A stretch of DNA of 64,000 bases from Actinomycetota bacterium (GTDB lineage: Bacteria; Actinomycetota; Actinomycetes; Nanopelagicales; Nanopelagicaceae), in NCBI GenBank assembly GCA_016870365.1, contig VGBW01000001.1:1-64000 (forward strand). The letters are read 5' to 3'. The notes under the pieces are model-generated. The model did no database searches. It saw only the letters and a list, made by a program, of their open reading frames with translations, and was not told the origin of the DNA. Of the stretch, positions 228-23,308 are shown piece by piece (positions within the stretch are counted from its first letter, which is position 1; each line of letters begins with the position of its first letter). Made by a program: the position numbers and the translations under genes.

Positions 228-228
228 T

Positions 229-7863: not shown

Positions 7864-7879
7864 ACAATAACGTTTTTGT
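7864..7879. promoter_or_regulatory. LacI-type operator-like palindrome
   Basis: ACAATAACGTTTTTGT is symmetrical around a central CG with seven of eight base pairs matching, the usual form of LacI/GalR-family operators. It lies in the 140-base divergent region between the ABC transporter operon and the zinc dehydrogenase genes. No regulator gene is in the window, so the binding protein is unknown. Confidence 0.4.
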
Positions 7880-7926
7880 GATTACTCAGGCTGGTCTCTA
7901 CTTTCCCATGATGGTTTGATTGCCGC

Positions 7927-8919
7927 ATGAAAGCGATCTCTATTACCGCTCCAAGCCAATTGGAACTGATTGAACTTGCCGATCCCACCCCAGGTAACTC
8001 TGAAGTAGTAGTCGAAGTTGCTGCAGTTGGTATTTGTGGCACCGATTTACATATTTTTGAAGGAGAGTTTGCCCCGAAACTACCGATAATTCCTGGCCAT
8101 GAGATGAGCGGAGAGGTAGTGGCTATTGGTGCAGGAGTCAAAGGAATCAAAGTTGGAGATTATGTTGCGATCGATCCATCTTTGCATTGCGGAGAGTGTT
8201 TTTATTGTCGCCGTGCCCGCGGCAATTTGTGTGAAAATTGGAATGCATTAGGTGTCACATTCCCAGGAGCTGCTGCAGAATTTTTACTATCACCCCAGAA
8301 AAATATCCATAAGTTACCAAAGGGAGTTGATTTGAAATCAGCTGCTTTGATCGAGCCACTCTCCTGTGCAGTTAGGGGATTTGATCAACTACCACGAAAC
8401 CCCGGTTCTCATTATTTAATCTATGGCTCTGGCACTATGGGATTGATGATGGCAGAGCTAGCCAGAATTAATGGTGCTGCGTCAGTCTCGATTGTTGATC
8501 TCAACTTAGAAAAACTAAAAACTGCGACAATTTTAGGATTTACCAATACTGCTTCCTCTGCTGATGTATTTGATCAACCGAGAGGATTTGATGTAGTTAT
8601 AGATTGCACTGGAGTTACCGCCGCAATAAAGGATGGATTAAAGCATGTCATGCCTGGTGGAACTTTTCTACAGTTTGGCGTAGCCAACGAAGGGGCTAAG
8701 GTAGAGATTGAGCCATTTTGGATTTATAACAAGGAAATCACCATCGTCGGCTCGATGGCAGTACTGCATTCTTTTGATCGTGCGGTAGAACTTTTCAGCA
8801 CGGGCGTTTTAAATGCTGAGGTAATGATTTCCGATCAATATCCACTTGACAAATATCAGGATGCATTATTAGCCTTTAAGTCTGGCAAGGGGCGCAAGAC
8901 GATTGTGCTGCCTAACTAA
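7927..8919 (+). CDS. zinc-dependent alcohol/sugar dehydrogenase (MDR superfamily)
   Basis: A 330-residue medium-chain dehydrogenase of the sorbitol/threonine dehydrogenase type. The catalytic zinc region is GICGTDLH (Cys 37) and GHE; the structural zinc site is CGECFYCRRARGNLC; a dinucleotide-binding segment YGSGTMGLMMAE follows. The length is normal. It starts a two-gene plus-strand unit with a second MDR enzyme five bases downstream. In this cluster it could oxidise the free sugar to its lactone or act on a keto-deoxy acid, but the sequence does not fix the substrate. Known L-fucose dehydrogenases are mostly of other families, so the assignment stays open. Confidence 0.85.
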   Translation: MKAISITAPSQLELIELADPTPGNSEVVVEVAAVGICGTDLHIFEGEFAPKLPIIPGHEMSGEVVAIGAGVKGIKVGDYVAIDPSLHCGECFYCRRARGNLCENWNALGVTFPGAAAEFLLSPQKNIHKLPKGVDLKSAALIEPLSCAVRGFDQLPRNPGSHYLIYGSGTMGLMMAELARINGAASVSIVDLNLEKLKTATILGFTNTASSADVFDQPRGFDVVIDCTGVTAAIKDGLKHVMPGGTFLQFGVANEGAKVEIEPFWIYNKEITIVGSMAVLHSFDRAVELFSTGVLNAEVMISDQYPLDKYQDALLAFKSGKGRKTIVLPN

Positions 8920-8924
8920 TTACT

Positions 8925-9917
8925 ATGAATGCTCTTTTGCTCTCAGCCATTAATCAGATTGCCATCGCAGAGCAACCTACGCCAAAGCCTGAACCAGGAA
9001 GATCGGTAATCAAAGTCTTGGCCTCTGGTTTGTGTGGCACTGATAGACATATTTATAAAGGCGAGTATCCATCGAATAAGCCAGTGATTTTGGGGCATGA
9101 ATTTGGGGGCGTAATAAACTCCCCCAGTCCAGACTGCAAATATTCCGCAGGGGATCTAGTTTCAGTGGACCCCAACATAGTCTGCGGTAAATGTATAGAT
9201 TGTTTGGCAGGGCGAACCGCATTTTGTCCCTCACTAATAGCTTTAGGTGTCAATATGAATGGCGGGTTTGCGCAGTACGCATTAGTCCCAGATACTCAAC
9301 TACATAAAGTAAGTAATGCACTTAATCCGTTGCATTTAGCATTTATTGAACCCACAGCATGCTGTATTCGAGGCCTGGATATTGCAGCTATGCAAGGTGG
9401 TGAAAAAGTAGCGGTGCTTGGGGGAGGAGTAATGGGCCAGATTGTGGCTCAGTTAAGTGCACTAGCTAATGCCTCACAGATTACTATGGTAACCCGACAA
9501 CGTGCTCGACGAGAGCTGGCCATCTCACTAGGTGCTACAGATTCGGTTGATCCGGTAGAAAAGGAGGTCGAATCCAAATTACAAAATTACGATGTGGTTT
9601 TTGAGTGTGCCGGAGTAGTGGAAACATTTAATTTGGCTCAAAAAATTGCTCGCAGAGGTGGATCAATTGTGGTTCTAGGCTTAACTCCAGAGAAAACTAT
9701 GGTTGACTTTAATCCATTTCAATTAGTGATCAAAGAATTACGTATCCAAGGCTCTTTTTTGAATCCCCTAACACAACGGCGAGCCGCTGATTTAGTTGAC
9801 TCCGGAAAATTGCGTCTAGATCCACTTATTTCTCGTACTTTATCTTTGCTAGAAGTACCAGAAATCCTAAACAAACCACCAGGGCAAAGCGATGTAAAGT
9901 ATGTGGTAGTGCCTTAG
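8925..9917 (+). CDS. second zinc-dependent alcohol/sugar dehydrogenase (MDR superfamily)
   Basis: A 330-residue paralogue of the preceding enzyme, clearly diverged. It keeps the catalytic zinc motif GLCGTDRH, GHE, the four-cysteine structural zinc site CGKCIDCLAGRTAFC and the coenzyme loop LGGGVMGQI. The five-base gap to the upstream gene makes co-transcription almost certain. Two MDR dehydrogenases beside one sugar transporter and a fuconate dehydratase suggest two oxidation steps of one pathway, for example sugar to lactone and 2-keto-3-deoxy acid to diketo acid; this is inference. Confidence 0.85.
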   Translation: MNALLLSAINQIAIAEQPTPKPEPGRSVIKVLASGLCGTDRHIYKGEYPSNKPVILGHEFGGVINSPSPDCKYSAGDLVSVDPNIVCGKCIDCLAGRTAFCPSLIALGVNMNGGFAQYALVPDTQLHKVSNALNPLHLAFIEPTACCIRGLDIAAMQGGEKVAVLGGGVMGQIVAQLSALANASQITMVTRQRARRELAISLGATDSVDPVEKEVESKLQNYDVVFECAGVVETFNLAQKIARRGGSIVVLGLTPEKTMVDFNPFQLVIKELRIQGSFLNPLTQRRAADLVDSGKLRLDPLISRTLSLLEVPEILNKPPGQSDVKYVVVP

Positions 9918-9918
9918 T

Positions 9919-10460
9919 TCAAGTCGCTGAATTTAGGGTGTTATCACAGGTTCTTGGGGGATTAGTAACCATCTTTCCGATTTCATCATATGAGGATGCA
10001 ACAGTTTTTTGATTTTGACTTTGGATTTAGGTTGGAAACTGCACTAAGAGTAGCGCTGTTTTATAGCTCCAAGCAGCAATATCTTTGTCGAGTGATTTTT
10101 GAGCAAGCACTGATAATCGAGCAGCAGCAAGCTTGGTATTTTCAATAACTTAGCCTTGGTTTCATCTTGGTTGGTATAAGAGTTATCAACTTGTACGGAA
10201 ACTTCCGCATTTACGATCGTGGCGCATTCAACATTTCGAGGTGGATTCCAAGATTTACCGATATCGGTACCTTGGCTTGGGTCTAATTGTTGGTAACTAG
10301 AAGAAGGAGTTCCACTCTGCCTACTACTGAGATAAACTGATGCTACTGCTACGGTTGTAACTACCAGTACAACCAAAGCAGCTGAACTAAATTTTTCATA
10401 GGCTGATATATTCTCAAGTAAAAACATTCTAGCTAAAACTAAATCAAGATTCATCACCAA
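9919..10460 (-). pseudogene. decayed gene for a membrane-anchored protein of unknown family
   Basis: The N-terminal part reads well: a short cytoplasmic stretch, one transmembrane helix (about residues 27-45, AALVVLVVTTVAVASVYL), then a Ser/Pro-rich extracellular linker and VECATIVNAEVSVQVDN. After NQDETKAK the open frame becomes unlike protein (LLKIPSLLLLDYQ...), while the neighbouring frame continues with VIENTKLAAARLSVLAQKSL and, after one in-frame TAA, NPPRTCDNTLNSAT to a stop at 9919. One frameshift plus one nonsense codon is the simplest reading. The remnant lies tail to tail with the MDR gene, two bases away. I do not recognise the family. Confidence 0.5.
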
Positions 10461-10500
10461 ATTCTAGTTAGAAATCTCAAAGAGTGCTAGCGTCCAAGTG

Positions 10501-11349
10501 TTACTTGTCTATACTCAACTGGTTAATCTCAATTGGTCCAATCCCACAGCAGCCACCAATAATTTCAGCACCCGCATCAAACCACTCTTGAACCAACCGA
10601 TTACTAAATCCAGATGCGCTACTCCCTGTCCAGATCTTCTTCTTTGCATCCCAAACTCTTCCGGAATTGGGATAGACAATATAAGGCTTGTTTGATTTTA
10701 CAGAGCGCAATAGATCTGTAATTAACTCTGGTTTGGTGCAATTTATGCCAACTGCCATTGCACTATCGGCTAGATCAACTGCGCTTTGAAAACTTTGCCC
10801 AGCATTTGTTTGTTTACCCTCCTTGCAGGAATATGAGATCCAATATGGAATTGGGCAATTAGTTAATAACTCCACTAATACCTCAACCTCAAAGGTATCT
10901 GGCATAGTTTCAAGTGCTAAGTAATCTGGTGAAGTTGAAATCAAGATTTCAAGACGCCTGGCATGAAATCCTTTTAGAACGGACTTACCCACACCGTAAT
11001 TTCCCTTGTACTCAGAGCCATCAGCAAGGGATGCGCCATACGGGCCAATTGATGCTGCCACCTTTACATCTTTACCACTTTGAGCAACAGCATCCTCTGC
11101 TAATTGAGTTGATGAGATCAAGGCTTGATCAGTTTCTGCTTCACTCCAGCCACTTTGAGCACAACCTGAGTAGGAGAGTTGATAGGAGGCGGTAATAATG
11201 ATTTGGGCCCCAGCATTAATGAAATCCAAATGAGCTTTGGTAATTTCAGCAGGGTTTGTTCGAACTAATTCACCAGTCCAGAGTGAGGTGGTTAGTTTGT
11301 TGCCATTATTTTCAAGTGCGGTAGATAGTCCACCATCTAATTTGATCAC
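10501..11349 (-). CDS. mmuM: homocysteine S-methyltransferase
   Basis: A 282-residue homocysteine S-methyltransferase-domain protein. It starts with LDGGLST, and the zinc ligands are visible as C204 (GINCTKPE) and the pair C267/C268 (IGGCCGIGP). Such enzymes methylate homocysteine from S-methylmethionine or S-adenosylmethionine to give methionine. The only possible start is the GTG at 11349, because the conserved LDGG begins three codons later and no other start codon lies in frame upstream. This GTG is two bases after the 3' end of the CAT tRNA gene, so there is no room for a ribosome site; the mRNA is probably freed by tRNA 3' processing and translated leaderless. Confidence 0.88.
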   Translation of the reverse strand: MIKLDGGLSTALENNGNKLTTSLWTGELVRTNPAEITKAHLDFINAGAQIIITASYQLSYSGCAQSGWSEAETDQALISSTQLAEDAVAQSGKDVKVAASIGPYGASLADGSEYKGNYGVGKSVLKGFHARRLEILISTSPDYLALETMPDTFEVEVLVELLTNCPIPYWISYSCKEGKQTNAGQSFQSAVDLADSAMAVGINCTKPELITDLLRSVKSNKPYIVYPNSGRVWDAKKKIWTGSSASGFSNRLVQEWFDAGAEIIGGCCGIGPIEINQLSIDK

Positions 11350-11350
11350 G

Positions 11351-11424
11351 TGGGGCGGGTAGGGCTCGAACCTACGACGACCGGATTATGAGTCCGGGGC
11401 TCTAACCAACTGAGCTACTGCCCC
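11351..11424 (-). tRNA. tRNA with CAT anticodon (elongator Met most likely, Ile2 possible)
   Basis: The minus strand folds as a 74-nt cloverleaf: acceptor GGGGCAG against CCGCCCC with one mismatch, D arm GCTC/GAGC, anticodon arm CCGGA-CTCATAA-TCCGG, and T arm GTAGG-TTCGAGC-CCTAC. The 3' CCA is not encoded. The CAT anticodon fits elongator tRNA-Met; a lysidine-modified tRNA-Ile cannot be excluded by eye. Its 5' half is repeated exactly at 22569-22606, marking this gene as the integration site of the island to its right. Confidence 0.88.
11387..11424 (-). repeat. left attachment-site repeat (38 bp) inside the tRNA gene
   Basis: This is the 5' half of the tRNA gene, from its first base to just after the anticodon. 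It is identical to 22569-22606. The identity stops in the anticodon loop, which suggests that strand exchange took place there. Confidence 0.8.
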
Positions 11425-11517
11425 TAGCGCTCCATACTCTACAAGATAGGAGGGTAAGTGATACCTCCGGCTCCTCCTGGTCAGAGGCAATCGCCAAGGC
11501 TTTGCTAATGTTTCAGG

Positions 11518-12741
11518 GTGGAGCAAAGTTTTTGCAACAGAGTAATTGAAAGTTCCTTCAAAGGTTTTCCAATAGATTCCTATGGGAAAACCCTTAAGCA
11601 GTTTTTAGCCACTAAGCCAAATCTTTTTGCCGCAAACTTTCAATTTCCCATCATGGTGCTCAAAGCGGGAGCGCTGAAAAACAATATTGAACAGATGGCA
11701 AAGTTTTGCAAATCAGTGGGCGCCGAACTTGCCCCACACGTTAAGACCACTATGTCTCCGCAGATTGCGCAAATGCAAATGCAGGCTGGGGCCTTTGGTT
11801 TAACCATTGCCAATTTTTGGCAGGCATCAGTATTTCTAGATTTTGGGTTTAAGCGATTGATAATTGCAAATGAGGTTCTAGATTCAATTGCAATTGCCAA
11901 AATCTCAGAGTTAAACAAAGCTGGGCAGGCTGAGATCATTTTCTATGTTGACTCACTTGCCGGTCTAGAAATTATTCAAGAACACACACCGCAAAATGGT
12001 GAGCAAAATCTATTTATTGAAATCGGCACAGAGAAAGGTCGTGGGGGAGTAAGAAATCTAGCTCAGGTGGAGCTAATTGCCCAAGAAGTTAAGGCAGATG
12101 GCAGATTGAAGTTGCGCGGTGTGACTGGCTTTGAAGGAGCGGTACCGGATGCGGCTAGGAGTAGAAAAGGTGAGCGGAGTTTGATTAGGTTTTGCCAAAA
12201 AATTGTGGCAGCCGCCAACCTGGCTTATCCATACCGATCGGAACAAGAATTTATCGTCTCCGCCGGGGGAAGTGCCTACTTTGAAATTGTGGCAACGGAG
12301 CTAAATAAGTTTGCTCAACCTAAGATCTTGCTGCTTAGAAGTGGTGGGTATGTTACGCATGATAGTAAGTATTATGAGGATATCTATCCTTTTAAAGATT
12401 CTAAACAAGGTTTTCAGCCAGCGATTGAGGTCTGGACGCAGATTATTACCACGCCAGAGGCTGGTTTTGGGGTGCTAAATCTTGGGAAAAGAGATATTGG
12501 TAATGATCTGCACAACCCCATCCCCTTTGCCAAATTTGGCAGCGAACTAACCGCCTTTGCCGGTGCGGTGGAAAAGCTCAATGATCAGCATGGCTACTTG
12601 CGCAGCAAGCAAAGCTTTGCAGTTTCAGAGTTGATTGGGTTGGGTATTTCTCACCCGTGTACTACCTTTGATAAGTGGCGGTTAATCCCACTGGTCAAAG
12701 ACAATTATGATGTTGTAGATTGTTTGTATACATTCTTCTAA
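11518..12741 (+). CDS. D-serine dehydratase / D-threonine aldolase-like PLP enzyme (DSD1 family)
   Basis: A 407-residue fold-type III PLP enzyme: an alanine-racemase-like barrel followed by the D-serine dehydratase-like C-terminal domain. The PLP lysine is K76 in APHVKTTMSP. The metal-binding pair is HPC in GISHPCTTFDKW near residue 382, as in eukaryotic-type D-serine dehydratases and D-threonine aldolases. It would cleave or dehydrate a beta-hydroxy D-amino acid. First gene of the island cargo; RidA, which clears the 2-aminoacrylate made by serine dehydratases, is encoded 22 bases downstream and supports a dehydratase role. The GTG start is not well fixed; a later start is possible because homology becomes clear only near residue 40. 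Confidence 0.8.
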   Translation: MEQSFCNRVIESSFKGFPIDSYGKTLKQFLATKPNLFAANFQFPIMVLKAGALKNNIEQMAKFCKSVGAELAPHVKTTMSPQIAQMQMQAGAFGLTIANFWQASVFLDFGFKRLIIANEVLDSIAIAKISELNKAGQAEIIFYVDSLAGLEIIQEHTPQNGEQNLFIEIGTEKGRGGVRNLAQVELIAQEVKADGRLKLRGVTGFEGAVPDAARSRKGERSLIRFCQKIVAAANLAYPYRSEQEFIVSAGGSAYFEIVATELNKFAQPKILLLRSGGYVTHDSKYYEDIYPFKDSKQGFQPAIEVWTQIITTPEAGFGVLNLGKRDIGNDLHNPIPFAKFGSELTAFAGAVEKLNDQHGYLRSKQSFAVSELIGLGISHPCTTFDKWRLIPLVKDNYDVVDCLYTFF

Positions 12742-12763
12742 ATCAATCATAAATGGAGGCCTT

Positions 12764-13147
12764 ATGAAAGTCGAACATGTAACCGCCCCTGGTGCCCCAG
12801 CTCCTGGTGGTTCTTATTCACACGGGGTAGTGGCAAATGGTTTTCTCTACACCTGTGGCATGGGACCAGCCGACCCAGTAAGCGGCAAAGTGGTGGCAGG
12901 TGGTGTGGCCGAGCAAACTAGACAGACCTTGAAAAATCTACAAAAGATATTGGATGTGAAAGGCGCTAAGTTTTCTGATGTGGTCAAAGTAACCGCGCAT
13001 CTGCAAGATGTGAATCGTGATTTTGCTGCCTATGATGCGGTCTACCGGGAGTTTTTTTCTGCACCATATCCAGTAAGGACCACCGTGGGATCTGATCTAA
13101 TAAATATATTAGTTGAGATTGATTTCGTAGTTGCTCTACCAAATTAA
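12764..13147 (+). CDS. ridA: RidA family 2-iminobutanoate/2-iminopropanoate deaminase
   Basis: A 127-residue YjgF/YER057c/UK114 protein. The catalytic arginine is kept as R105 (PYPVRTTVGSDL) with E118 in ILVEIDFVV, so it should be an active enamine/imine deaminase. It hydrolyses reactive 2-aminoacrylate and related imines formed by PLP lyases. A strong GGAGG site precedes the ATG, and the gene directly follows the D-serine dehydratase-like gene, so the pair probably works in sequence, giving a 2-keto acid and ammonia. Confidence 0.88.
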   Translation: MKVEHVTAPGAPAPGGSYSHGVVANGFLYTCGMGPADPVSGKVVAGGVAEQTRQTLKNLQKILDVKGAKFSDVVKVTAHLQDVNRDFAAYDAVYREFFSAPYPVRTTVGSDLINILVEIDFVVALPN

Positions 13148-13148
13148 T

Positions 13149-13946
13149 ATGAAACCAGAGCAGGATTTGGCGGGCAAGGTAGTAGTAATTACCGGAGCAG
13201 GGCGAGGGATCGGTCGACAGATCGCTAAAGGTGCTGGTGAGCGCGGTGCTATGGTGGCATTAGTTGAGTTGATCAGAGAAAATCTGGACTCTGCCGTTAA
13301 TGAGTTGGTGGCTATGGGAATTGATGCCAGAGGTTATTTGACCGATATCTCAAATGAATCTGAAATCAATAAGAATTTTGCGCTAATTGAAAAAGATTTT
13401 GGCCAAATTGATTGTCTAGTAAATAACGCCATGATTCATGACCCAGAGGATTTATTAGCCACCTCATTGGAGCTGTGGAATCGCACCTTAGCGGTCACCT
13501 TAACTGGCAGCTTCTTAGCGATTAAAGCGACCCTGCCGGGGATGATTAGGCGCAAGAAAGGGTGCATCATCAACATGGGTACGGTTAATGCCAAAGCGAT
13601 GATTGGCAGTGATTCCTACAGTGTTGCCAAAGCTGGAATTCATGCCTTAACCAGGACAGTGGCAGTTAGATATGGTGGCGATGGAGTTCGTTGCATCACG
13701 GTAGTTCCAGGAACTATTGCCACCGATGCCTGGCAGGAGCGGGTGGATCGTAATCCACAAATCTTTGAAAAATTGAAACCCTGGTATCCACTGGGACGGG
13801 TTGGCACCCCAACTGATGTTGCTGAATTAGTTTTGTTTTTGCTCTCAGATAGATCGCAATGGATTAGCGGAAGTGAGTTTGTGGTAGATGGTGGGCTTCT
13901 AGCTGGGTATGCACCGATGTTTAAGATGGTTGAAGGCTCAGATTGA
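13149..13946 (+). CDS. short-chain dehydrogenase/reductase
   Basis: A 265-residue classical SDR. The NAD(P) loop is TGAGRGIG, with VNNAM after strand 4, catalytic Ser in GSDSYSVAKAG giving YxxxK, and the C-terminal WISGSEFVVDGG. It lies between ridA and the deacylase gene; the ATG at 13149 follows the ridA stop by one base, so translation is probably coupled. A TTG at 13131 would extend it without added homology. It probably oxidises or reduces a product of the same pathway; the substrate cannot be read from the sequence. Confidence 0.85.
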   Translation: MKPEQDLAGKVVVITGAGRGIGRQIAKGAGERGAMVALVELIRENLDSAVNELVAMGIDARGYLTDISNESEINKNFALIEKDFGQIDCLVNNAMIHDPEDLLATSLELWNRTLAVTLTGSFLAIKATLPGMIRRKKGCIINMGTVNAKAMIGSDSYSVAKAGIHALTRTVAVRYGGDGVRCITVVPGTIATDAWQERVDRNPQIFEKLKPWYPLGRVGTPTDVAELVLFLLSDRSQWISGSEFVVDGGLLAGYAPMFKMVEGSD

Positions 13947-15550
13947 ATAAAGTGAGTGAGAATACATTCACTATCCGTGGGGCAAATGTCATAGATGGTA
14001 GTGATACCCCTGCTATTCGCCAAGATATTTTAGTAAGTAATGGAGTGATTGCCGCAGTTGGTTCGATTCTAAAAGGTGCCGAGGAAGGGAAAGTCATTGA
14101 TGGCTCTGGTTTAACCTTGACACCAGGGTTTATTGATATGCATGCCCACTCAGACCTTGCGGTGCTAGCTGACCAGCAACATTTAGCCAAAGTTACCCAA
14201 GGGGTCACCTTGGAGGTGGTGGGCCAAGATGGTCTTAGCTATGTGCCAAGTAATCCAGAGAGCCAACTGGCCCTTCGGGAGCAGTTGTTTGGATGGAACT
14301 CTGATCCAAAAAATTTCGATTGGAATTTTTACACTGTGGAGGATTATCTTAAGAAAGTTGATCAGGGGTGTGCGGTAAATGTTGCCTACCTAATCCCACA
14401 TGGCACAGTTCGATTATTGGTCAGAGGTAATGAACCCGGATTTGCCTCAGCGGATGAACTGCAAGAAATGAAGGATCTGACCTATCAGGGAATGCAGCAA
14501 GGAGCCTTTGGTTTGTCAGCTGGCCTGACCTACACCCCAGCAATGTATGCAGATGATCTAGAGATTGTGGAGTTATGTAAGGTGGTAGCCGAATTTGGCG
14601 GTTACTACGCACCACATCATCGCAACTACGGGGCTAAGTTTCTAGATGCGGTAAATGAATGCTTTGAGATTGCAAAACTATCCAAATCTCCACTACATCT
14701 AACCCACTGCCATATGAGTCACCCAAGTTTTCATGGTAGAACTGATCTACTCTTTGAACAAATTAATTTGGCAGAAAATAGTGGAGTCGATGTGACTTTA
14801 GATACCTATCCTTACTTAGCGGGTTCAACCTACCTACACGCCCTACTGCCATCTTGGGTGCAGGCAGGTGGAGCGGCGGAGACAATTAAGCGCTTAAACT
14901 CCAGAGAAAGTCGCCAAAAGGTTATTTTTGAGTTAGCTTTGACTGGCAGCGATGGAAATCATGGCGGAGTAGTTAATTGGGCGGCAATCACTATCGCTGG
15001 TGTGGAAAAAGCGCACAACCTTAGATTTGTTGGGATGGATCTAATCTCGGCAGCGAAGTTACTTAATAGGAAAGTAGAGGAGTTTTATTTGGATCTTATT
15101 GTGGATGAGCAGTTGAAGGCATCCTGTGTGATATTTGCCGGGCATGAACCAAATGTTCGGGCCATAATGCAAGATAAAAGACATATGGTTGGTAGTGATG
15201 GAATCTTGACTGGTAACCGACCGCACCCGAGAGGTTATGGAACCTTTGCCAGATATCTCGGTGTTTATGCTCGGGATGAAAAAGTTTTAACCTTGCATGG
15301 TGCCATTGCCAGAATGAGTGGGCGGCCAGCGAGAAGACTTGGGCTAATAGATCGTGGATTTATTAAAGTTGGCATGAAAGCTGACATGGTTTTGTTTGAT
15401 GCTGATTCGGTAATTGACCGCTCAACATATGAAGAGCCAAGGGTTGCTGCCGCTGGATTTGAGATGGTTTGGGTATCAGGAATTGCAACTTTGCGCCATG
15501 GCAAGCGCACCCAAGCCACCCCAGGGGTTGGGTTGCGAAAAGCCCGCTAA
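13943..15550 (+). CDS. N-acyl-D-amino-acid deacylase family amidohydrolase
   Basis: A 535-residue amidohydrolase of the D-aminoacylase/dihydroorotase group. Visible metal-site motifs are HAHSD (H67, H69), HLTHCHMSH in the middle, and the catalytic Asp in VGSDGIL, with the C-terminal beta segment GMKADMVLFD. D-aminoacylases have a metal-ligand Cys in a NCG motif; here the matching place reads VGQDGLS, so this belongs to a variant subgroup and its exact substrate is uncertain. It overlaps the SDR gene by four bases (TTG start). With the D-amino-acid lyase and RidA upstream, removal of an acyl group from a D-amino acid is a sensible role. Confidence 0.8.
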   Translation: MNKVSENTFTIRGANVIDGSDTPAIRQDILVSNGVIAAVGSILKGAEEGKVIDGSGLTLTPGFIDMHAHSDLAVLADQQHLAKVTQGVTLEVVGQDGLSYVPSNPESQLALREQLFGWNSDPKNFDWNFYTVEDYLKKVDQGCAVNVAYLIPHGTVRLLVRGNEPGFASADELQEMKDLTYQGMQQGAFGLSAGLTYTPAMYADDLEIVELCKVVAEFGGYYAPHHRNYGAKFLDAVNECFEIAKLSKSPLHLTHCHMSHPSFHGRTDLLFEQINLAENSGVDVTLDTYPYLAGSTYLHALLPSWVQAGGAAETIKRLNSRESRQKVIFELALTGSDGNHGGVVNWAAITIAGVEKAHNLRFVGMDLISAAKLLNRKVEEFYLDLIVDEQLKASCVIFAGHEPNVRAIMQDKRHMVGSDGILTGNRPHPRGYGTFARYLGVYARDEKVLTLHGAIARMSGRPARRLGLIDRGFIKVGMKADMVLFDADSVIDRSTYEEPRVAAAGFEMVWVSGIATLRHGKRTQATPGVGLRKAR

Positions 15551-15567
15551 CCGACTTAGGCGCTGGT

Positions 15568-15579
15568 TTTGATATCAAA
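15568..15579. promoter_or_regulatory. 12-bp perfect palindrome upstream of the island ABC operon
   Basis: TTTGATATCAAA lies about 85 bases before the binding-protein gene, just after the deacylase stop. It may be an operator or part of the promoter. No regulator is encoded in the island. Confidence 0.3.
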
Positions 15580-15664
15580 TAGTTATCATTCTGACTTGCC
15601 TCCTTCATGAATTAGTGATGGGCTAGATCCCCCACAATCAGTGGAGAGGCCGGAGGAATAAGTA

Positions 15665-16906
15665 ATGAAAAGACCAACCAAGCGCAGAATTGCTGCGCTG
15701 GCTTCACTTGGATTGGTAGCAGCTGCTCTGGCAGCTGCGCCAGCTCAAGCTAACGTAACAATTAAGGTTGTTACTCCAAACTACACAGATGCCATGCCTG
15801 CATACTATGAGGATCTAAATGCACGCTTTATGGCTGCTAACCCAACTATCAAAGTTGTTCATGAGAATCTAAGCTGGGATGATATCTTGGTTAAGGGTCG
15901 TACTTTTATTTCAACCAAGTCATATCCAGATGTATTGAACCTAAATACATTCTCAGAGTTTGCTGCTGAGGGACTTCTATATAAGACCAGCGATCTATTC
16001 ACCGAGGCAAAACTTTCTGACTTTGTTACCGCATTCCGCGATAACTCAAAGTACAACGGTGTTGAATATGCTGTCCCAGATTTGGCTTCAGCACGAATGT
16101 TCTTTATTAACAAGGCTTTGTTCTATGGCGCTGGCAATACCAAGATCCCAAAAACTTGGGCTGACGTAACTGCTGCCGCTAAGAAAATCAAGGCAAAGTA
16201 TGGTTCAAAAGTCTACCCATTGGCTATCCCACTAGGCTCAGAGGAAGCTCAAGCTGAGTTCCAAATTTGGGCTGGTGGAAATGGGGGACGTTACTTCGAT
16301 GAGAAGAACAAGAAGTGGGTTATCAACTCAAAGGAAAACCTAGAGACCCTTAATCAATTGAGAGCATGGGTAAAAGCTGGTTACACACAACCAAACCCAG
16401 CATCAACAAACCGTACTGATGCATTTAAGCTATTTAGCCAAGGCCGAGTGGCGATGATCAACGCCTCCGTGTTCTTCCCTTCAACTTTGAAGGATTACAA
16501 GAGCAAGGTTGACTACGGTGTTGCTCCATTCCCATCTGCTAATGCCAGCAAGAAGCCAATCACTCTCGGAGTCCAGGATTACTTCATGGCTTTCAAGAAG
16601 GAAGGAAACAAGGATGCTGTTTCTAAGTATCTAAACTTCTTGTTTGAGGGTAAGAACTACGCAGGCTTCCTAAAGGCTGCTGGTGGATTTATCCCAGCCA
16701 CCAAGTCCGCTTCAACTGAAGTGGATTCATCTTTGCTTCCATTCATTGAGCAACTTCCAAACGCTATCTTCTACCCAGGAACACTAGGTGCCTGGGGTCC
16801 TGTCGTCGCCAAGATCACAACTCAAATCGGCACAGGCATAACCAAGAATCCAAAGACAGTTTTGGATTCGTTGCAGAAGGCTGCTGAGAGTGCTGGTACC
16901 AATTAA
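15665..16906 (+). CDS. ABC transporter extracellular solute-binding protein (family 1, MalE-like)
   Basis: A 413-residue solute-binding protein. The N-terminus is a basic signal peptide with cleavage after AQA (about residue 29) and no lipobox Cys, unlike the lipoprotein at 4248-5210. The body follows the SBP_bac_1 pattern: a first strand TIKVVTPNYT, WADVTAAAKKIKAKYG near 170, a domain-crossing GVQDYFMAFKK and PATKSAS near the end. A GGAGGAA site precedes the ATG. It is followed by a strong hairpin and two MalFG-type permease genes. The ligand is unknown; the island enzymes suggest N-acylated amino acids or amino sugars. Confidence 0.86.
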   Translation: MKRPTKRRIAALASLGLVAAALAAAPAQANVTIKVVTPNYTDAMPAYYEDLNARFMAANPTIKVVHENLSWDDILVKGRTFISTKSYPDVLNLNTFSEFAAEGLLYKTSDLFTEAKLSDFVTAFRDNSKYNGVEYAVPDLASARMFFINKALFYGAGNTKIPKTWADVTAAAKKIKAKYGSKVYPLAIPLGSEEAQAEFQIWAGGNGGRYFDEKNKKWVINSKENLETLNQLRAWVKAGYTQPNPASTNRTDAFKLFSQGRVAMINASVFFPSTLKDYKSKVDYGVAPFPSANASKKPITLGVQDYFMAFKKEGNKDAVSKYLNFLFEGKNYAGFLKAAGGFIPATKSASTEVDSSLLPFIEQLPNAIFYPGTLGAWGPVVAKITTQIGTGITKNPKTVLDSLQKAAESAGTN

Positions 16907-16935
16907 TTACTGAAATAGTAATTCAAAGGTAAGAC

Positions 16936-16978
16936 TTATGAGCGGGACCTGGCGAGTAATCACAGGTCCCGCTCATAA
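16936..16978 (+). terminator. 16-bp hairpin between binding-protein and permease genes
   Basis: A perfect 16-bp inverted repeat (TTATGAGCGGGACCTG and its complement, 11-base loop) is not followed by a clear T-run. It probably protects the binding-protein mRNA or partly stops transcription, giving more binding protein than permease. Confidence 0.6.
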
Positions 16979-17027
16979 CATATTAGGTAGTGTTAAAGGT
17001 AACTAACTAAGTTTGAAATGAGGGACC

Positions 17028-17963
17028 TTGAGCGGCAAACTGCTGATAAAGAACAACGCAACAATAACCAAGAAATCTGTTGCAACTCATGATGTTTCGT
17101 TAACTAGCGCACTCCCATGGATCGGGCCTGCACTTATCTTGATTGCTTTGGTGGTGATCTGGCCGGTAGTTGAGTTAGTGAGAATTTCCTTTACCGACAT
17201 CACCATTGCAGGTAGTTTGTTGGATTTCCATGGATTTACCAACTATCGAGAGTTACTAGCCAATCCAGATTTGTATCCAGTCGCTCGTAGAACTTTGCTG
17301 TGGGTTTTTGGGATTGTTTTCTCTACCGTCATATTGTCTTTGCCACTGGCACAATTGATAAATCAAGATTTCCCAGGACGTAAATATGTGCGCTGGGCTC
17401 TGATCTTCCCATGGGCAGCTTCAGTAGTTATGACATCTATGATCTGGACATGGATTTTGGATGCTTACTCAGGTGAATTCAATCTAACCCTCACCCAAAT
17501 TGGACTAATCACCGAACCCGTGGATTGGGTAAACAATCCGGGGAACTCTTTTTATGTCTTAATGGCAGTTGCAGTTTTCGTTTCTATCCCTTTTACCACC
17601 TATGTATTGCTGGCAGGTTTGCAATCCATACCTAATGACATTATCGAGGCTGCTGCGGTGGACGGAGCAGGTCATTGGCAGATTTATCGTCAGATAAAGT
17701 TTCCTTTGTTAAGAAATTCATTACTAATCGCAACAATTATCAATCTGATTAATGTGTTCAATTCATTCCCAATTATTTGGATTATGACTCGGGGTGGACC
17801 AGGATATGAAACCGATACCACCACGACCTTTGCTTATAAGCTGGCATTTATTGAGTCCAATATGGGTCAATCAACGGCCTTGGGAGTCTTCAACTTCATC
17901 GTAATCCTCTTAATCGTTAGTTTGTATTTGAAGGTTACTAAGGCGACAAGGACTGAGCTGTGA
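17028..17963 (+). CDS. ABC transporter permease (MalF-like)
   Basis: A 311-residue inner-membrane subunit with about six transmembrane segments. The cytoplasmic EAA loop is seen as EAAAVDGAGHWQIYRQIKFP near residue 209, the contact point for the ATPase. A TTG start follows a GAGGGA ribosome site. It overlaps the next permease by four bases, and together they form the heteromeric channel of a sugar-type importer. No ATP-binding protein is encoded in this operon, so a shared MsmK/MalK-type ATPase encoded elsewhere is presumably used. Confidence 0.9.
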   Translation: MSGKLLIKNNATITKKSVATHDVSLTSALPWIGPALILIALVVIWPVVELVRISFTDITIAGSLLDFHGFTNYRELLANPDLYPVARRTLLWVFGIVFSTVILSLPLAQLINQDFPGRKYVRWALIFPWAASVVMTSMIWTWILDAYSGEFNLTLTQIGLITEPVDWVNNPGNSFYVLMAVAVFVSIPFTTYVLLAGLQSIPNDIIEAAAVDGAGHWQIYRQIKFPLLRNSLLIATIINLINVFNSFPIIWIMTRGGPGYETDTTTTFAYKLAFIESNMGQSTALGVFNFIVILLIVSLYLKVTKATRTEL

Positions 17964-18802
17964 AAAATACTAAGTCCAAAACAATTAGCGTCAAAAAGGT
18001 CGCAACTATGACTGGTGCCTATTTCATAGCGTGGTTCTTCTTGTACCCATACATAAACATGTTCTTAACTTCGGTTAGATCACATGAAGAGTTATATGCC
18101 CATCCAACTACTCACCTTCCCCAAGCCTGGCAATGGCGAAATTACTTAGATGTTTGGGACAACGCCCCAATTGCCAATTTTCTTAAATCTAGTTTGATCA
18201 TATCGATTTCAGCCACCATATTGGCATTAGTAGTGTCGCTACCTGCGGCATACTTCTTAGCCAGATATAGATTTAAATTCCGTGGTGCATTCTTGCTACT
18301 AGTTCTTGCCACCCAAATGTTTTCGCCAACAGCATTGATAATTGGAATTTTCCGAGAGGTAGATTTCTTTAGCCTGCTAGATTCCTACCTTGCTCTTATC
18401 ATCCTAAATGCTGGATTTAACCTTGCCTTTTCCATTTGGCTCTTAGCTGGGTTCTTCTCCAGTATCCCAATAGAAATCGAAGAGGCGGCTTTAATTGATG
18501 GCTGCACTAGAATTCAAGCACTGCGAAGAGTCACCATTCCGATTGCACTTCCTGGTGTAGTCACCGCAATCATTTTCACCTTTGTTGCTGCTTGGAATGA
18601 ATTTACTATTGCATTAACAATCATAAGCTCTATTAACAAAAAACCACTTCCTGTGGGATTGACTCAATTTATTGGCCAATATGACATTGCCTGGGAGTAT
18701 CTATTCACCGCAACTATCATTGCCATCATACCAGTAGTAGTTTTGTTTATTGTCATTGAGAGGTATCTAGTAAGTGGGTTAACAGCCGGTAGCGTCAAAT
18801 GA
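17960..18802 (+). CDS. ABC transporter permease (MalG-like)
   Basis: A 280-residue membrane protein, partner of the MalF-like subunit. About six transmembrane segments are visible. The EAA loop reads EEAALIDGCTRIQALRRVTI near residue 175. The ATGA-type overlaps at both ends indicate tight translational coupling with the upstream permease and the downstream unknown gene, so the latter probably serves the same substrate. Confidence 0.9.
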   Translation: MKNTKSKTISVKKVATMTGAYFIAWFFLYPYINMFLTSVRSHEELYAHPTTHLPQAWQWRNYLDVWDNAPIANFLKSSLIISISATILALVVSLPAAYFLARYRFKFRGAFLLLVLATQMFSPTALIIGIFREVDFFSLLDSYLALIILNAGFNLAFSIWLLAGFFSSIPIEIEEAALIDGCTRIQALRRVTIPIALPGVVTAIIFTFVAAWNEFTIALTIISSINKKPLPVGLTQFIGQYDIAWEYLFTATIIAIIPVVVLFIVIERYLVSGLTAGSVK

Positions 18803-19998
18803 TTTCGATTCAGTCAAACGCATTCACCTTACCCTATACATTTTTTCGAGAACCACCTGAGAAAGTTATTCCAGAGCTAAAGCAGTACGGCTTTTCTGGA
18901 ATCAATTTGGCCTTGAATTACCACAGCAGCCGAGACTTGTTATTGCGCCAAGGCCCGCAGTTAGAGTATCTAGCAGATGGATTTCATTACTATAAATCAA
19001 ATTATCAAATGTACTCTGGTGATGCACTCAAACCTGATCTAAGAGATCAATCACCCAGTAATGATTTGATTGATTCAGTCATTCTGGTGGCTAAGACAAA
19101 TGACTTTCAGGTCAACGCTTGGGCGGTTTACCTACATAACTCAGCGATCGGTATGGCTCACCCTGAGACGGTAGTTACTAACGTATTTGGCAATAGATTT
19201 TTGTCAGAGCTCTGCCCAGCAAATCCGCAGGTAGCAGGATACGCATTGGGAATGACCCGTGATCTATGCAATTTAGGAATTGCTGGAATCAGGGCAGAAT
19301 CCCTGCATTTTCATGGGGCACGGCATGGTGAGCATCATGAAAGGTTTTTTATTGAACTTAGTCAAGTTAGTGAGTTCTTATTCGCACTTTGTTTTTGTGA
19401 TCATTGCAAGAAAAATTATCAAGCTGAGCACTCAGAGCTTGGAAACTTGGTGCAGTCAGTCAAATCTAAGCTGACACATGTCTTTGAGGACCGTGATCCA
19501 TGGATTGGAAAGAAACTGAGCAAAGAGCTACTAGCCGAAATAATTGGCCCGAATATCTTAGATTATCTCTTAACCAGAGAAAAATCGGTCTCAAATCTCT
19601 ATCGAAAGATAAAGGACATTACACAAGAATTGGAAGTATCATTTACTTTTGTGGATCAAGCTCCACTTCTTGATTTGGATTCGGCTAATGCTAGCCAAAA
19701 TAGTTGGCAAGTTGGGATAGATAACTCCCAAATTAAGCAGTTCGTAGATAGATTTGCACCCCTAATTTATCGCAGACAGAGTGATCAAGTTGTCGCACTT
19801 ACCAATGATTACCTCAAAAATACTGCTAATGAGATCAATGCAATATTGAGACCGACTTTTCCAGATTGCACAACTTTTGAAAACTTGGCAGCTAAGGTAA
19901 AAAACTTAGTTGGATTAGGAGTTAGTGAAATCGATTTTTACCTGCTAGATACCATGCGGAAAAGAGATCTAGATAATATTCGGCAAGTACTCAACTAG
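18799..19998 (+). CDS. protein of unknown function, TIM-barrel hydrolase-like
   Basis: A 399-residue soluble protein without signal peptide that I cannot assign to a named family. It overlaps the MalG-like gene by four bases. Features seen: an N-terminal strand-helix pattern like a (beta/alpha)8 barrel (GFSGINLALNYH, FQVNAWAVYLHN), GIAGIRAESLHFHGARHGEHHE near residue 160 with a cluster of His/Glu, and a CxxC motif FCDHCKKNY near 200. The CFCxxC context recalls barrel-type glycosidase-like proteins, but no catalytic pair can be proved. Its place with an importer suggests that it works in the cytoplasm on the imported compound. Confidence 0.6.
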   Translation: MISIQSNAFTLPYTFFREPPEKVIPELKQYGFSGINLALNYHSSRDLLLRQGPQLEYLADGFHYYKSNYQMYSGDALKPDLRDQSPSNDLIDSVILVAKTNDFQVNAWAVYLHNSAIGMAHPETVVTNVFGNRFLSELCPANPQVAGYALGMTRDLCNLGIAGIRAESLHFHGARHGEHHERFFIELSQVSEFLFALCFCDHCKKNYQAEHSELGNLVQSVKSKLTHVFEDRDPWIGKKLSKELLAEIIGPNILDYLLTREKSVSNLYRKIKDITQELEVSFTFVDQAPLLDLDSANASQNSWQVGIDNSQIKQFVDRFAPLIYRRQSDQVVALTNDYLKNTANEINAILRPTFPDCTTFENLAAKVKNLVGLGVSEIDFYLLDTMRKRDLDNIRQVLN

Positions 19999-20071
19999 CA
20001 TTCTCGACAGATCAGGATTTTAAGGACCAGTCAGAAAAGATTTCAATTTAGTCGAAGAAGGAAGGTGCACC

Positions 20072-20968
20072 TTGGAGCGAGGCGTCTACTGTGTCCTGCA
20101 AACACCACTTAATGATGATGACAGTATTAATCAACAAGAATTCATGAGAGAAATTGATTGGCTCATCCAGCGTGGAGTTAAAGGTCTAGTCCTAGCTATG
20201 GCGTCAGAAGTAATGAGATTTACCGCAGCCGAACGACGAAGTCAGTGGAAATTGGCCCTGCAGTACATAAATGGCCGAGTTCCATTCATTGTGAGCGTTG
20301 GTGGTGAAAGTACTGCGATCGCAACTAAGCTTGCTCGCTGGGCTGAATTAGATGGTGCCAACGCGTTAATGGCCACTGCACCTGCCATCTTTCCAGCGAC
20401 CTCATCTGAGATATATGGGTATTACGCGGCGATAATTGAATCCATTCAGATTCCACTAATTGTGCAGGACGCTAGCAATTATATGGGGCAACCTTTAGAA
20501 CTTGAGCTCTATGGAAATCTCATTCAAAAATATGGAACAGATCGAGTGCAATTTAAACCTGAGGCCAAACCGGTAAAGGAGCGAGCGGTGGCATTACAAC
20601 AAATTGCACAGGGAAAAGCGAAGATATTTGAAGGACAAAGTGGTCTAGATTTGTTAGATACACATCCGTTGGGACTAATGGGCACAATGCCAGGCAGCGA
20701 AATTCCTTGGGCGATTATCAAACTTTGGTCGGCACTAGAAGAAAATGAATTTGATAAGGCTATTGCAATTCATGCGGTGGTTGCTCAATTAGTCTCTTTC
20801 CAACAAAACATTGATAGCTATGTCGCAGTTGAAAAGTACTTACTAGCTAAACAAGGAATATTTAGTTCAACCCATCAACGAGGACCAGTAAGGACTATTC
20901 TAAGTGGAGAAACAAAAAGAGAAATAGATCAGGTTTTTGAAAAGTTAGTTCAAATAACTAATTACTGA
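20072..20968 (+). CDS. DapA / N-acetylneuraminate lyase family aldolase
   Basis: A 298-residue class I aldolase-type barrel. The Schiff-base lysine is in VQFKPEAKP near residue 167. GGESTAIATKLARWAELDGAN is the usual second-helix region (shown here only in part as motif). The Tyr motif of true dihydrodipicolinate synthases (YNxP) is replaced by VQDASNYMG, so a lysine-biosynthetic role is unlikely; keto-acid or sugar-acid aldolases and dehydratases of the family are better candidates. TTG start after a GAAGGAAGG ribosome site. It ends over the remnant of nagA on the opposite strand. Confidence 0.82.
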   Translation: MERGVYCVLQTPLNDDDSINQQEFMREIDWLIQRGVKGLVLAMASEVMRFTAAERRSQWKLALQYINGRVPFIVSVGGESTAIATKLARWAELDGANALMATAPAIFPATSSEIYGYYAAIIESIQIPLIVQDASNYMGQPLELELYGNLIQKYGTDRVQFKPEAKPVKERAVALQQIAQGKAKIFEGQSGLDLLDTHPLGLMGTMPGSEIPWAIIKLWSALEENEFDKAIAIHAVVAQLVSFQQNIDSYVAVEKYLLAKQGIFSSTHQRGPVRTILSGETKREIDQVFEKLVQITNY

Positions 20969-21423
20969 GCTATACAAGACCCCAATCAGATCACAAGCTC
21001 TGGTGGTAGCGCTAGCTAGTGCGATTTCCCTTGGCACTCCAAGTTTCTCTAGTCGATCTAATGAATCATCCATGCTGGCAAAGAAACGGCTAACATTCCG
21101 TCAATGCTGCGTGCCTGACCATTTTCGGTGATTACATTGATCTCGCCAAAAGTGAAATTTCCAGAACCTAATCCTGCAGCAACATCATTGGTGATGATAA
21201 ATCTATCTATAACCTTTGGCAATGTTCTAGCCAATAAATCGTCGGCAACATGAACTCCGTAGACAATAATTTGAATGATCACATCTTTGCGCTGTAATGC
21301 AGCATCACTAAGACCTTCATCTGGTAGTTTCGGTATGCCATTGAATAGATGTGTAACAGTCTTGGCACAGGGTGAAAATCCAGCATTTGCTTGAGCTTTT
21401 GTAGCATTTGTATGGCCAATCAA
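20945..21423 (-). pseudogene. nagA: nagA remnant (N-acetylglucosamine-6-phosphate deacetylase, C-terminal half)
   Basis: The open part begins GHTNATKAQANAG and continues THLFNGIP and IVYGVHVADDLL, the characteristic second half of NagA; the position of the catalytic Asp reads TNDVAAGLG instead of the usual TDA. After DGMLA the frame breaks: the neighbouring frame carries MDDSLDRLEKLGVPREIALA and runs to a stop at 20945, the normal end of the protein. The whole N-terminal half, with the HxH motif, is missing. It is therefore a dead gene. It shows that the island once carried, or was inserted into, an amino-sugar catabolic locus. Confidence 0.82.
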
Positions 21424-21590
21424 CCTATTCCTACATATGTTATCTAAAGCAAGAATTATCAGAGAGAGCTGATGCGAATCCCACGTCGATCAATTTCGGA
21501 GTTGTGATTTAGAATTAGGGTTGCATACCCTGGCCAGATGGTCTTAAACTGATTGGCACCCATCCTGCTTGCCAACCGAAATGAGCTTTA

Positions 21591-21992
21591 ATGTCTGATG
21601 TAAATCAAAATAAAGAAATCGTTCGGCAATTCTTTGAGCAGATTTGGAATCAAGGCGATGAAAGTGCTATAGATAGATTCATAGCCGAAGATGCAATCGG
21701 CAATGACCCTAAATTTGGGGTGGGCCGGGAGTCATTCCGGGCTCAATGGCGCAAATGGCGGATAGCTTTTCCTGATATAAATTTTGCCATTCAGGAGTTG
21801 GTTGCCGAAAATGATGTGGTGGTATCTAGATGGCTGCTAACTGGAACTCATTTGGGACAATACCTTAATAAACCAGCAACTGGTAAGAAAATTTCGGTCG
21901 ATGGCGTAAGCATTGACAGGTTGAAAAATGGCATGGTGGTTTCAGGCTTTGACGCTTGGGACTCACAAGTTCTAGCAGCGCAGATTTCTTAG
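21591..21992 (+). CDS. SnoaL-like / ester cyclase domain protein
   Basis: A 133-residue NTF2-like protein of the SnoaL polyketide-cyclase/ester-cyclase group. Typical features are the N-terminal helix NKEIVRQFFEQIWNQGDESA, GRESFRAQWRKWRIAFPD and VVSRWLLTGTHLGQYL. Such proteins bind small hydrophobic ligands and may isomerise or hydrolyse them; no specific reaction can be assigned. ATG start; single gene with its own upstream region of about 160 bases. It is the last intact cargo gene before the integrase remnant. Confidence 0.8.
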   Translation: MSDVNQNKEIVRQFFEQIWNQGDESAIDRFIAEDAIGNDPKFGVGRESFRAQWRKWRIAFPDINFAIQELVAENDVVVSRWLLTGTHLGQYLNKPATGKKISVDGVSIDRLKNGMVVSGFDAWDSQVLAAQIS

Positions 21993-22001
21993 GCCAACTG
22001 A

Positions 22002-22471
22002 ATCATCCCTTTTGCAGGCTTTACTGCACCTTCCGTTGAGATTGCCACCCATTATCTGACTTTGAGTCAATTCGTGAAGGTGGCAGAGTATGCAGGTCTT
22101 TATCGGGATGTGGTTCTAGTTCTAGGTCCTTGTGGTCTTCGATGGGGAGAGTTGGTTGGGCTTCAGGTAAGGGATCTAAGTGTTGCTACTAGCACACTGA
22201 CTATCCGCCGTTCTCTTGTAGAAATAAATAGAAAACTGGAGGAAAGCGCTACCAAGTCACATCGTTGGCGTATAGTCCATCTTCCTCAGATATTGCAAAG
22301 TGCGTGCCATAGTTGGGTATTTGATAAGAATCAAGAAGACCCTATCCATACAAAGGAAGGCGCCTTCTTAAGAAATACCAATTTCATCCGAATAATATTC
22401 ATACCCGCCTAAAAAATGCCGAGGTTAAGAGGATCCGAATTCACGACCCCAAATGTGCGTTCACCCATTAA
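22002..22471 (+). pseudogene. tyrosine recombinase (phage-type integrase) remnant
   Basis: Only the catalytic-domain start is left. The frame open from 22002 reads YLTLSQFVKVAEYAG, then GPCGLRWGELVGLQVRDL, with the first catalytic Arg, and the actinophage-integrase-like TIRRSLVEI and HRWRIVHLP. After about residue 130 the matching sequence moves to another frame, where NAEVKRIRIHDPKCAFTH stands for the normal RIHDLRHTFAT box; the second catalytic Arg is lost and a stop follows. The N-terminal DNA-binding domain and the Tyr nucleophile are absent. It lies 98 bases from the right attachment repeat, as expected for the integrase of the island. Confidence 0.85.
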
Positions 22472-22568
22472 ATGAGGATTCACATGTGCACCCCATTGAG
22501 CCAAGAACCTTCCTGGCCAGCGTTCTTATTTGCAAACGAGTAACCAAGATGAGTTTGGAACATCGGAC

Positions 22569-22606
22569 TATGAGTCCGGGGCTCTAACCAACTGAGCTAC
22601 TGCCCC
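22569..22606 (-). repeat. right attachment-site repeat: partial tRNA copy
   Basis: 38 bases identical to the 5' half of the CAT tRNA gene at 11387-11424, in the same orientation. It cannot form a tRNA because the anticodon 3' stem, T arm and acceptor 3' strand are missing. It marks the right end of the island. Confidence 0.85.
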
Positions 22607-22732
22607 CAGCCTCCGATGATACTTGGCAATTGGATATCGCCACTAATTTCAAGGTGGGCTTTACTTCCCACAGAAATTGGCACTTAGCGCATAGCATCAG
22701 AGCACTGTCTAGGAAGTCAGTACAGTATCGAG

Positions 22733-23308
22733 GTGAATGCTCTGCGCAAGGCGATTCTGCTTCTAACGATCTTGATGATTTCGATGAGTAATACCTGGGC
22801 AGCGCCAATTTATGCTTATCCGGTAGTCGGCTGTGAGACTATCTATGGCAAATACCATCATGATTATCCAGCTACTGATATTAAGGCAGAACTTGGTTGT
22901 GCTTTTGTGGCACCCATTGGTGGAGTTATCCAAGATGTAAGTAGAAAAGATCTCTGGAGTGGCAAGACTAACTTAGGCCAGCATCGTGGCGGTCGCTCTG
23001 TGTCTCTAATCGGTGATGATGGGGTGCGCTACTACGGGTCCCACCTATCAAGAGTCATGAAGGGAATTGAACCCGGGCTTCGAGTTGAGGTTGGCCAGAA
23101 ATTAGGTGAAATTGGCACCAGTGGCAGCGCTCGGGGAATTCCTCGCCCACATCTACATTTTGGAATCTCTTATCAAACCCAGCCAGGGGACTGGCAGATT
23201 AGACGTGGAGTCATAGCCCCGTGGAAGTATCTAGATGCCTGGAAGGCGGGTAAAGATCTCTCTCCGGCAAAAGCTGTTGCTAAGGCACAGGCCAAGGCCG
23301 GGAATTAG
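22733..23308 (+). CDS. secreted M23 family metallopeptidase
   Basis: A 191-residue protein with a signal peptide (cleavage near WAA, residue 24) and a peptidase M23/LytM domain. The zinc site is visible as HxxxD in YHHDYPATD and HxH in RPHLHFG; GEIGTSGSARG is the usual loop before it. Such enzymes cut peptidoglycan cross-links or act in cell-wall remodelling outside the membrane. The C-terminus ends in an Ala/Lys-rich tail. GTG start; first core gene to the right of the island. It ends in a strong terminator. Confidence 0.85.
   Translation: MNALRKAILLLTILMISMSNTWAAPIYAYPVVGCETIYGKYHHDYPATDIKAELGCAFVAPIGGVIQDVSRKDLWSGKTNLGQHRGGRSVSLIGDDGVRYYGSHLSRVMKGIEPGLRVEVGQKLGEIGTSGSARGIPRPHLHFGISYQTQPGDWQIRRGVIAPWKYLDAWKAGKDLSPAKAVAKAQAKAGN

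Follow-up and report, generated by a model that had tools for sequence, protein, structure and literature searches.

The 64-kb window (the whole stretch of DNA analysed, which forms the start of contig C1) most probably contains a decayed integrative element that entered the single elongator tRNA-Met gene of its host from the 5' side by means of a tyrosine integrase (probability about 0.88). The locus is a genuine genomic island, targeted to a tRNA and since decayed; insertion on the 5' side is known but rare, and the site is a hotspot entered from both sides. Sequence comparison gives the mechanism good support. An intact tRNA gene with a fragment of it in the same orientation on the correct side, an empty site in relatives, an integrase pseudogene and foreign cargo were all found, as in other tRNA-targeted genomic islands.

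The host belongs to the family Ca. Nanopelagicaceae and is represented by a 1.29-Mb draft genome of 25 contigs, 96.3% complete with a contamination of about 0.3%. It is a freshwater lake bacterium with a tiny genome. Obvious mobile elements are scarce in streamlined freshwater actinobacteria, which raises the question of how genes for uptake and catabolism are exchanged across species and genera. The locus would offer a base-exact, family-wide port of entry, in which one essential single-copy tRNA is entered from both sides. The genomes used for comparison carry handles of the form G###; g1 denotes the genus of the window and g2 another genus of the family, probably Ca. Nanopelagicus.

The elongator tRNA-Met gene and its displaced half

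Within 9-25 kb of the window, the only direct-repeat family of at least 18 nt was a 47-nt pair (11382-11428 and 22564-22610) with 96% identity. Forty-three of these nucleotides were located inside the tRNA and contained one mismatch (T at 11386, C at 22568), which fell in the anticodon loop. The exact 38-bp repeats described in the initial annotation were recovered within this 43-nt match at 11387-11424 and 22569-22606, and no match as good as the tRNA repeat arose by chance in shuffles. The intact CAT tRNA and the dead half-tRNA of that annotation were also recovered, since ARAGORN called the gene on the left and the right repeat copy lacked the tRNA 3' half, which renders it dead. The features of the tRNA region were as follows.

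11350-11424, minus strand: intact elongator tRNA-Met (CAT; ARAGORN), chimeric, with an A6-C67 mismatch in the acceptor stem
11382-11424, minus strand: left repeat, tRNA nt 1-43 (5' half with anticodon stem-loop), presumably supplied by the attP of the element
11425-11517, minus strand: sequence now flanking the tRNA on its 5' side and required to supply the promoter; weakly similar to the flank of the dead half
22564-22606, minus strand: right repeat, dead 5' half of what was probably the original tRNA-Met of the host (attB half), on its native flank

A genome-wide tRNA search, combined with patterns for either half, found a single full copy of the elongator tRNA-Met in the genome. The duplication covered the 5' half of the tRNA as far as the anticodon stem-loop, and the element was located on the 5' side (upstream) with the displaced fragment at an offset of -11182. 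An insertion on the 5' side replaces the promoter of the tRNA, so a new one would have to come from the 93 bp that separate the tRNA from the first cargo gene. The similarity of this flank to that of the dead half was weak, with equal scores reached in 1 of 1000 shuffles and in 11 of 1979 random window pairs.

The acceptor stem was fully paired in 77 of 78 elongator tRNA-Met genes, the sole mismatch being A6-C67 of the window. Both 5' halves in the window carried GGGGCAG, the type of most same-genus genomes, and four g2 genomes (G024, G097, G098 and G101) carried GGGGCGG. The 3' half of the window tRNA, CCGCCCC, was as in g2 genomes and two same-genus genomes, and it ran gaplessly into a g2-like methyltransferase with 81-85% identity. 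Because a GGGGCAG 5' half is joined here to a g2-type 3' half, the tRNA-Met gene is best understood as a hybrid whose two halves differ in origin, with A6-C67 as the scar of the insertion.

The integrase remnant and the cargo cluster

A tyrosine integrase remnant had been noted just inside the right repeat, and profile searches agreed. The segment 22062-22412 matched the Pfam tyrosine integrase with E=6e-4, under the gathering cut-off, and PHROG integrases with E=4e-7 and 2e-6. The tyrosine segment was gone, and the following pieces were left:

22062-22412, plus strand: piece of the catalytic domain of a tyrosine integrase pseudogene; contains the box I arginine, in CGLRWGELVGLQ at 22131-22166
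22436-22468, plus strand: integrase box II, eroded and frame-shifted (RIHDPKCAFTH)
22530-22595, plus strand: integrase C-terminal tail LQTSNQDEFGTSDYESGALTN, ending in a stop; its reading frame crosses the att core and enters the tRNA 5' half in antisense

The arm on the inner side of the dead 5' half was found in three other genomes of 296 (G168, G265 and G317). This shared arm was coding sequence, namely the C-terminal tail of the integrase, which passed through the att core to a stop inside the antisense of the tRNA. The tail of the G317 integrase, which read MRVYAH and, further on, LQTGNQVDSGTSDYESGALTN before its stop, likewise ended antisense to the 5' half of the tRNA. Recombination at tRNA-Met was presumably carried out by this type of integrase. 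Among the 296 family genomes, an intact integrase of the window type was absent and only fragments were present. Viral contigs contained no integrase of this type in DNA-pattern and protein searches, plasmids gave no match to the tail, and the PDB gave no match. Phages and plasmids searched with the core fragment yielded only actinobacterial or Aeromonas integrases with about 30% identity. A weak match in G223 was rejected as a SufS-type aminotransferase ORF, as judged by eye. The island now looks immobile, and with the integrase broken, neither excision nor a circular form is expected.

The catabolic and transport genes reported between the repeats were supported by Pfam matches. The cluster consisted of the following genes.

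11518-12741, plus strand: PLP enzyme of the D-serine dehydratase / 3-hydroxy-D-aspartate aldolase type
12764-13147, plus strand: RidA/L-PSP family protein
13131-13946, plus strand: short-chain dehydrogenase
13943-15550, plus strand: amidohydrolase, D-aminoacylase-like
15665-16906, plus strand: ABC solute-binding protein, 94-95% aa identity to g2
17028-17963, plus strand: ABC permease 1
17960-18802, plus strand: ABC permease 2
18799-19998, plus strand: 399-aa protein that matches no Pfam or NCBIfam family; other genera of the host family also have it
20072-20968, plus strand: aldolase of the DHDPS/N-acetylneuraminate-lyase family
21058-21423, minus strand: NagA-like amidohydrolase pseudogene, a 121-aa remnant of 301 aa, complete in G111
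21591-21992, plus strand: SnoaL-like protein

This set suggests the uptake and breakdown of a putative N-acylated amino acid or amino sugar. The cluster was syntenic in the g2 genomes G101 and G111, with a median aa identity of 86% and 85%, respectively; the core genes of the window genome had 62% aa identity to those of G024, below the level of the cargo. In the g2 genomes the cluster was located elsewhere than at tRNA-Met, and the gene for the 399-aa protein, used as a marker, had no match in other same-genus genomes. In G111 three further genes followed the cluster: the amidohydrolase in full length, a BadF-type ATPase that may be an amino-sugar kinase, and a SIS-domain gene. In the window these were lost or truncated. 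Beyond the integrase fragment, no phage gene was found by Pfam among the cargo ORFs, three ORFs of the window also being compared with PHROGs, and the element was not assigned to prophages or satellites. It was not assigned to integrative conjugative elements either, as no relaxase or transfer gene was present among the Pfam matches of the cargo ORFs. The initial annotation mentioned neither the duplication of the 5' half of the tRNA nor the pseudogene state of the NagA-like gene and the integrase.

Empty and filled sites, and foreign DNA on both sides of the tRNA

The recurrent gene order of the family at this locus was ORF537, ORF85, (response regulator), tRNA-Met, (ORF110, ORF315) and M23 peptidase. 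The peptidase gene served as the core anchor on the right:

22733-23308, plus strand: M23 peptidase, outside the island

The proposed comparison with relatives lacking the insert gave the expected result. A homocysteine methyltransferase gene, tRNA-Met and the M23 gene were adjacent in the g2 genomes G024, G101 and G098, which thus showed the predicted tRNA-Met/M23 join, and in 18 of the 80 named family loci tRNA-Met and the M23 gene were 36-200 bp apart, with nothing intervening. In same-genus genomes, tRNA-Met was beside M23 or ORF110, the cluster was absent and the neighbour on the 3' side was different. The closest relatives (G004, G001 and G014) had about 1.7 kb with two to four small genes between the tRNA and M23; the window had none of this stretch, so an extra deletion or an older loss would be needed. 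This 1.7-kb gap was also considered as another island and dropped, as ORF110 and ORF315 within it recur across the family.

An independent filled site was found in G168, of a third genus. Its tRNA-Met was intact and was separated from a dead 5' half by 13.9 kb of other, unrelated catabolic genes, with the core flanks kept on both sides (ORF110-ORF315-M23 next to the dead half, ORF537 and the response regulator at the other end); of its integrase, only the tail remained. G033 and G317, two genomes of one genus, shared a flank of 1567 bp in which identity stopped exactly after nt 43 of the tRNA, where G033 continued into the tRNA 3' half and G317 into the integrase C-terminus. In the window, the dead half broke off at this base too and was followed by the arm seen in G317 (TCCG and then directly ATGTTCCA). 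Empty, filled and decayed states stand side by side, and the locus makes the exchange of cassettes testable. The right inner flank was homologous among the elements, and the left arms were not clearly common to them.

Foreign DNA also occurred beyond the borders first proposed, 3' of the tRNA:

1-11349, no strand: foreign DNA 3' of the tRNA, GC 41.6% against 47.1% in the core
10501-11349, minus strand: homocysteine S-methyltransferase (SmeT), abutting the tRNA 3' end with the junction as in g2; part of the 3'-side foreign segment

The GC content was 41.6% in 1-11349, 43.8% in the island and 47.1% in the core. The tetranucleotide distance to the host's own core was 0.27 for 1-11349 and 0.235 for the island, against 0.083-0.126 for 11-kb pieces of the core, and the distances to g2 were 0.148 and 0.157, respectively. 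Syntenic same-genus contigs had no counterpart of 1-11349. With this foreign composition and no same-genus counterpart, the foreign DNA extends past the left repeat. Of the borders that had been defined to the base, the right one was exact to the base, and the left one did not hold since 1-11349 was equally foreign; the island in the CAT tRNA gene stood, and its bounding at 11387-11424 did not. As judged by composition and synteny, the only foreign-DNA border in contig C1 is the right one, at 22606/22607, and tRNA-Met appears to be mid-way in a composite variable region that reaches the contig start. In this draft, C1 starts within the variable region.

About 110 loci were scanned, each with its own intact tRNA-Met, and the extra fragments found were 12 in sense and 1 in antisense orientation, the latter being the chance level. 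All of the 5' fragments were upstream (the window, G168 and G119), all of the 3' fragments were downstream, and the longer fragments ended in the anticodon stem-loop. The core left flank of the host was on contig C7, and beyond it were three eroded remnants of the 3' half in the same orientation. The pattern of fragments marks tRNA-Met as an apparent two-sided, repeatedly used hotspot.

The integrase would have recombined the element with the anticodon stem-loop of the host tRNA-Met, the attP bringing in nt 1-43 of the tRNA, its 5' half, together with a promoter-bearing flank. Integration would have left the native 5' half of the host gene without function next to M23 (22564-22606), and the working gene at 11350-11424 would have been rebuilt from the 5' half of the element and the resident 3' half. 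The integrase gene would have been oriented towards the att site, with its end within the tRNA, and the cargo cluster for uptake and breakdown was presumably taken from a relative of genus g2. Loss of the tyrosine region and of the reading frame of the integrase would then have fixed the island in place, and separate insertions on the 3' side of the same tRNA probably delivered 1-11349.

A variant that does not exclude this scheme is that the cluster at 11.4-22 kb and the left segment came as one g2-like segment already holding the 5'-side island, instead of by separate insertions. The g2-like composition on both sides and the SmeT-tRNA junction, which is the native g2 arrangement, speak for it, but the 5' halves in the window are the same-genus GGGGCAG instead of the GGGGCGG of the four g2 genomes, and the g2 cluster sits away from tRNA-Met. 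Neither objection is decisive, and we regard this variant as doubtful. Much less credible is an assembly chimera, in which the first 22.6 or 11.4 kb of C1 would come from a Nanopelagicus-like organism and be misjoined at the tRNA-Met repeat. It would account for the g2-like composition of both segments and for the absence of SmeT from the locus in same-genus relatives, and a join inside the tRNA would yield the A6-C67 mismatch. However, contig ends overlapped by exactly 127 nt at 8 places, which implies an assembly with k=127, far above the 43-nt repeat, and thereby argues against a misjoin. The dead half and the inner arm also recurred in three independent assemblies from two other genera, the intact tRNA on the foreign side still had the genus-type 5' half GGGGCAG, and contamination was 0.29%. 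Plain contamination was downgraded, as no contig was wholly g2-like among the 5-kb pieces whose composition was sampled from the contigs. An origin free of any integrase, by decay of a second tRNA-Met gene and entry of the cluster through homologous recombination between tRNA flanks, would fit the loss of a functional integrase and the homologous replacement known for flexible islands of aquatic bacteria (PMC7771536), but it is highly improbable in view of fragments that are always on the side expected from integration and, when longer, end in the anticodon stem-loop, of the G033/G317 breakpoint at nt 43 with integrase sequence immediately past it, and of an integrase tail adjoining the dead half in four genomes.

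Insertion by a tyrosine integrase from the 5' side thus remains the preferred reading. A broader proposal, tentative and at somewhat less than even odds, is that Ca. Nanopelagicaceae have an undescribed integrase group that enters the elongator tRNA-Met from the 5' side and has its C-terminus encoded antisense to the 5' half of the tRNA, so that one crossover would regenerate both tRNA and integrase. Entered from both sides, this essential gene would then be a main gateway through which the family acquires cassettes for nutrient uptake, the price being hybrid tRNAs with mismatches.

Comparison with known systems

Islands in tRNA genes usually duplicate the 3' half and are located downstream of the gene. 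The Islander collection of 3919 islands contains 3760 with 3' fragments and 159 with 5' fragments (PMC4383910). The island resembles this 5'-fragment class in its tyrosine integrase, its tRNA attB, the regenerated gene and displaced fragment at opposite ends and the anticodon-centred crossover (PMC4383910), and its displaced 5' part is upstream of the tRNA, as in the anticodon-centred subclass. It differs in that the integrase is a pseudogene and that the site was entered also from the 3' side. Integrases that extend across attP are on record, for example those of Mx8 and SSV (PMC4383910). Islands need not sit 3' of the tRNA, and searches tuned to 3' fragments can miss such cases.

The cassette islands with tRNA direct repeats in the streamlined marine Ca. 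Actinomarinales (PMC7771536) show single-copy tRNAs repeatedly targeted by small cassettes, adjoining ABC transporter genes, partial tRNA repeats as scars and transfer between genera, all of which resemble the island. The order, the tRNA and the cargo are different, and neither a 5'-side insertion nor an integrase tail read into the tRNA is described in the available part of that report (PMC7771536). Tycheposons of Prochlorococcus, with a tRNA-Met form in Methylophilaceae (PMC10872708), are likewise cargo elements with a tyrosine recombinase at a tRNA and nutrient-related cargo in streamlined plankton; unlike them, the window element has no intact recombinase and duplicates the 5' half; tRNA-Met and an integrase remnant are present in it. 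In the tRNA-dependent lysogeny of actinobacteriophages (PMC10865867), actinobacterial tyrosine integrases similarly cross over in a tRNA, commonly at the anticodon loop. Except for the integrase remnant, no phage genes were seen in the island. Those phages do not restore the host tRNA but supply one of their own in its place (PMC10865867), whereas the tRNA of the window was rebuilt from the 43-nt core.

tRNA-Met remnants in G000 and G119

Three successive eroded remnants of the tRNA-Met 3' half, all in one orientation, lay on contig C7 of the genome holding the window (G000), in the interval from the core left flank to the contig end. These remnants are scars of repeated 3'-side insertions. 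The third dead tRNA-Met 5' half of G000 was located on contig C5 without an intact tRNA, and its flank was similar to the tRNA-Met flank of the family genome G013 (L040). In another family genome, G119, a short dead tRNA-Met 5' fragment adjoined the M23 peptidase gene, together with a small 5'-side insertion.

tRNA-Met features (coordinates within sequence pieces)
L083:12670-12696 (C7), eroded 3'-half remnant
L083:13366-13383 (C7), eroded 3'-half remnant
L083:14308-14344 (C7), eroded 3'-half remnant
L039:7571-7607 (C5:35570-35604), dead 5' half
L218:11035-11063 and 9559-9626 (G119), 1.4-kb 5'-side insertion

Contig ends and tRNA genes

Several contig ends of G000 were at or near tRNA genes, including C1:255928-256053 and C16:1-127, which overlapped exactly over 127 nt, and ends of C11, C15, and C20. 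The tRNA genes of this genome look like strain-variable breakpoints. When contig ends were compared for overlaps, the start tip of contig C25 (L244, 2978 bases) matched its end tip. One composition was not computable for this contig, which is probably masked sequence.

Foreign composition and antisense ORFs

A further stretch of foreign composition (GC 40.6-45%), resembling that of another genus of the family (g2), was found on contig C2 (L223:5000-20000) close to a tRNA at C2:1939-2011, and is possibly a second tRNA island. Long minus-strand ORFs antisense to the island cargo genes (window 11640-11939, 13640-14208, and similar) are probably mechanical.
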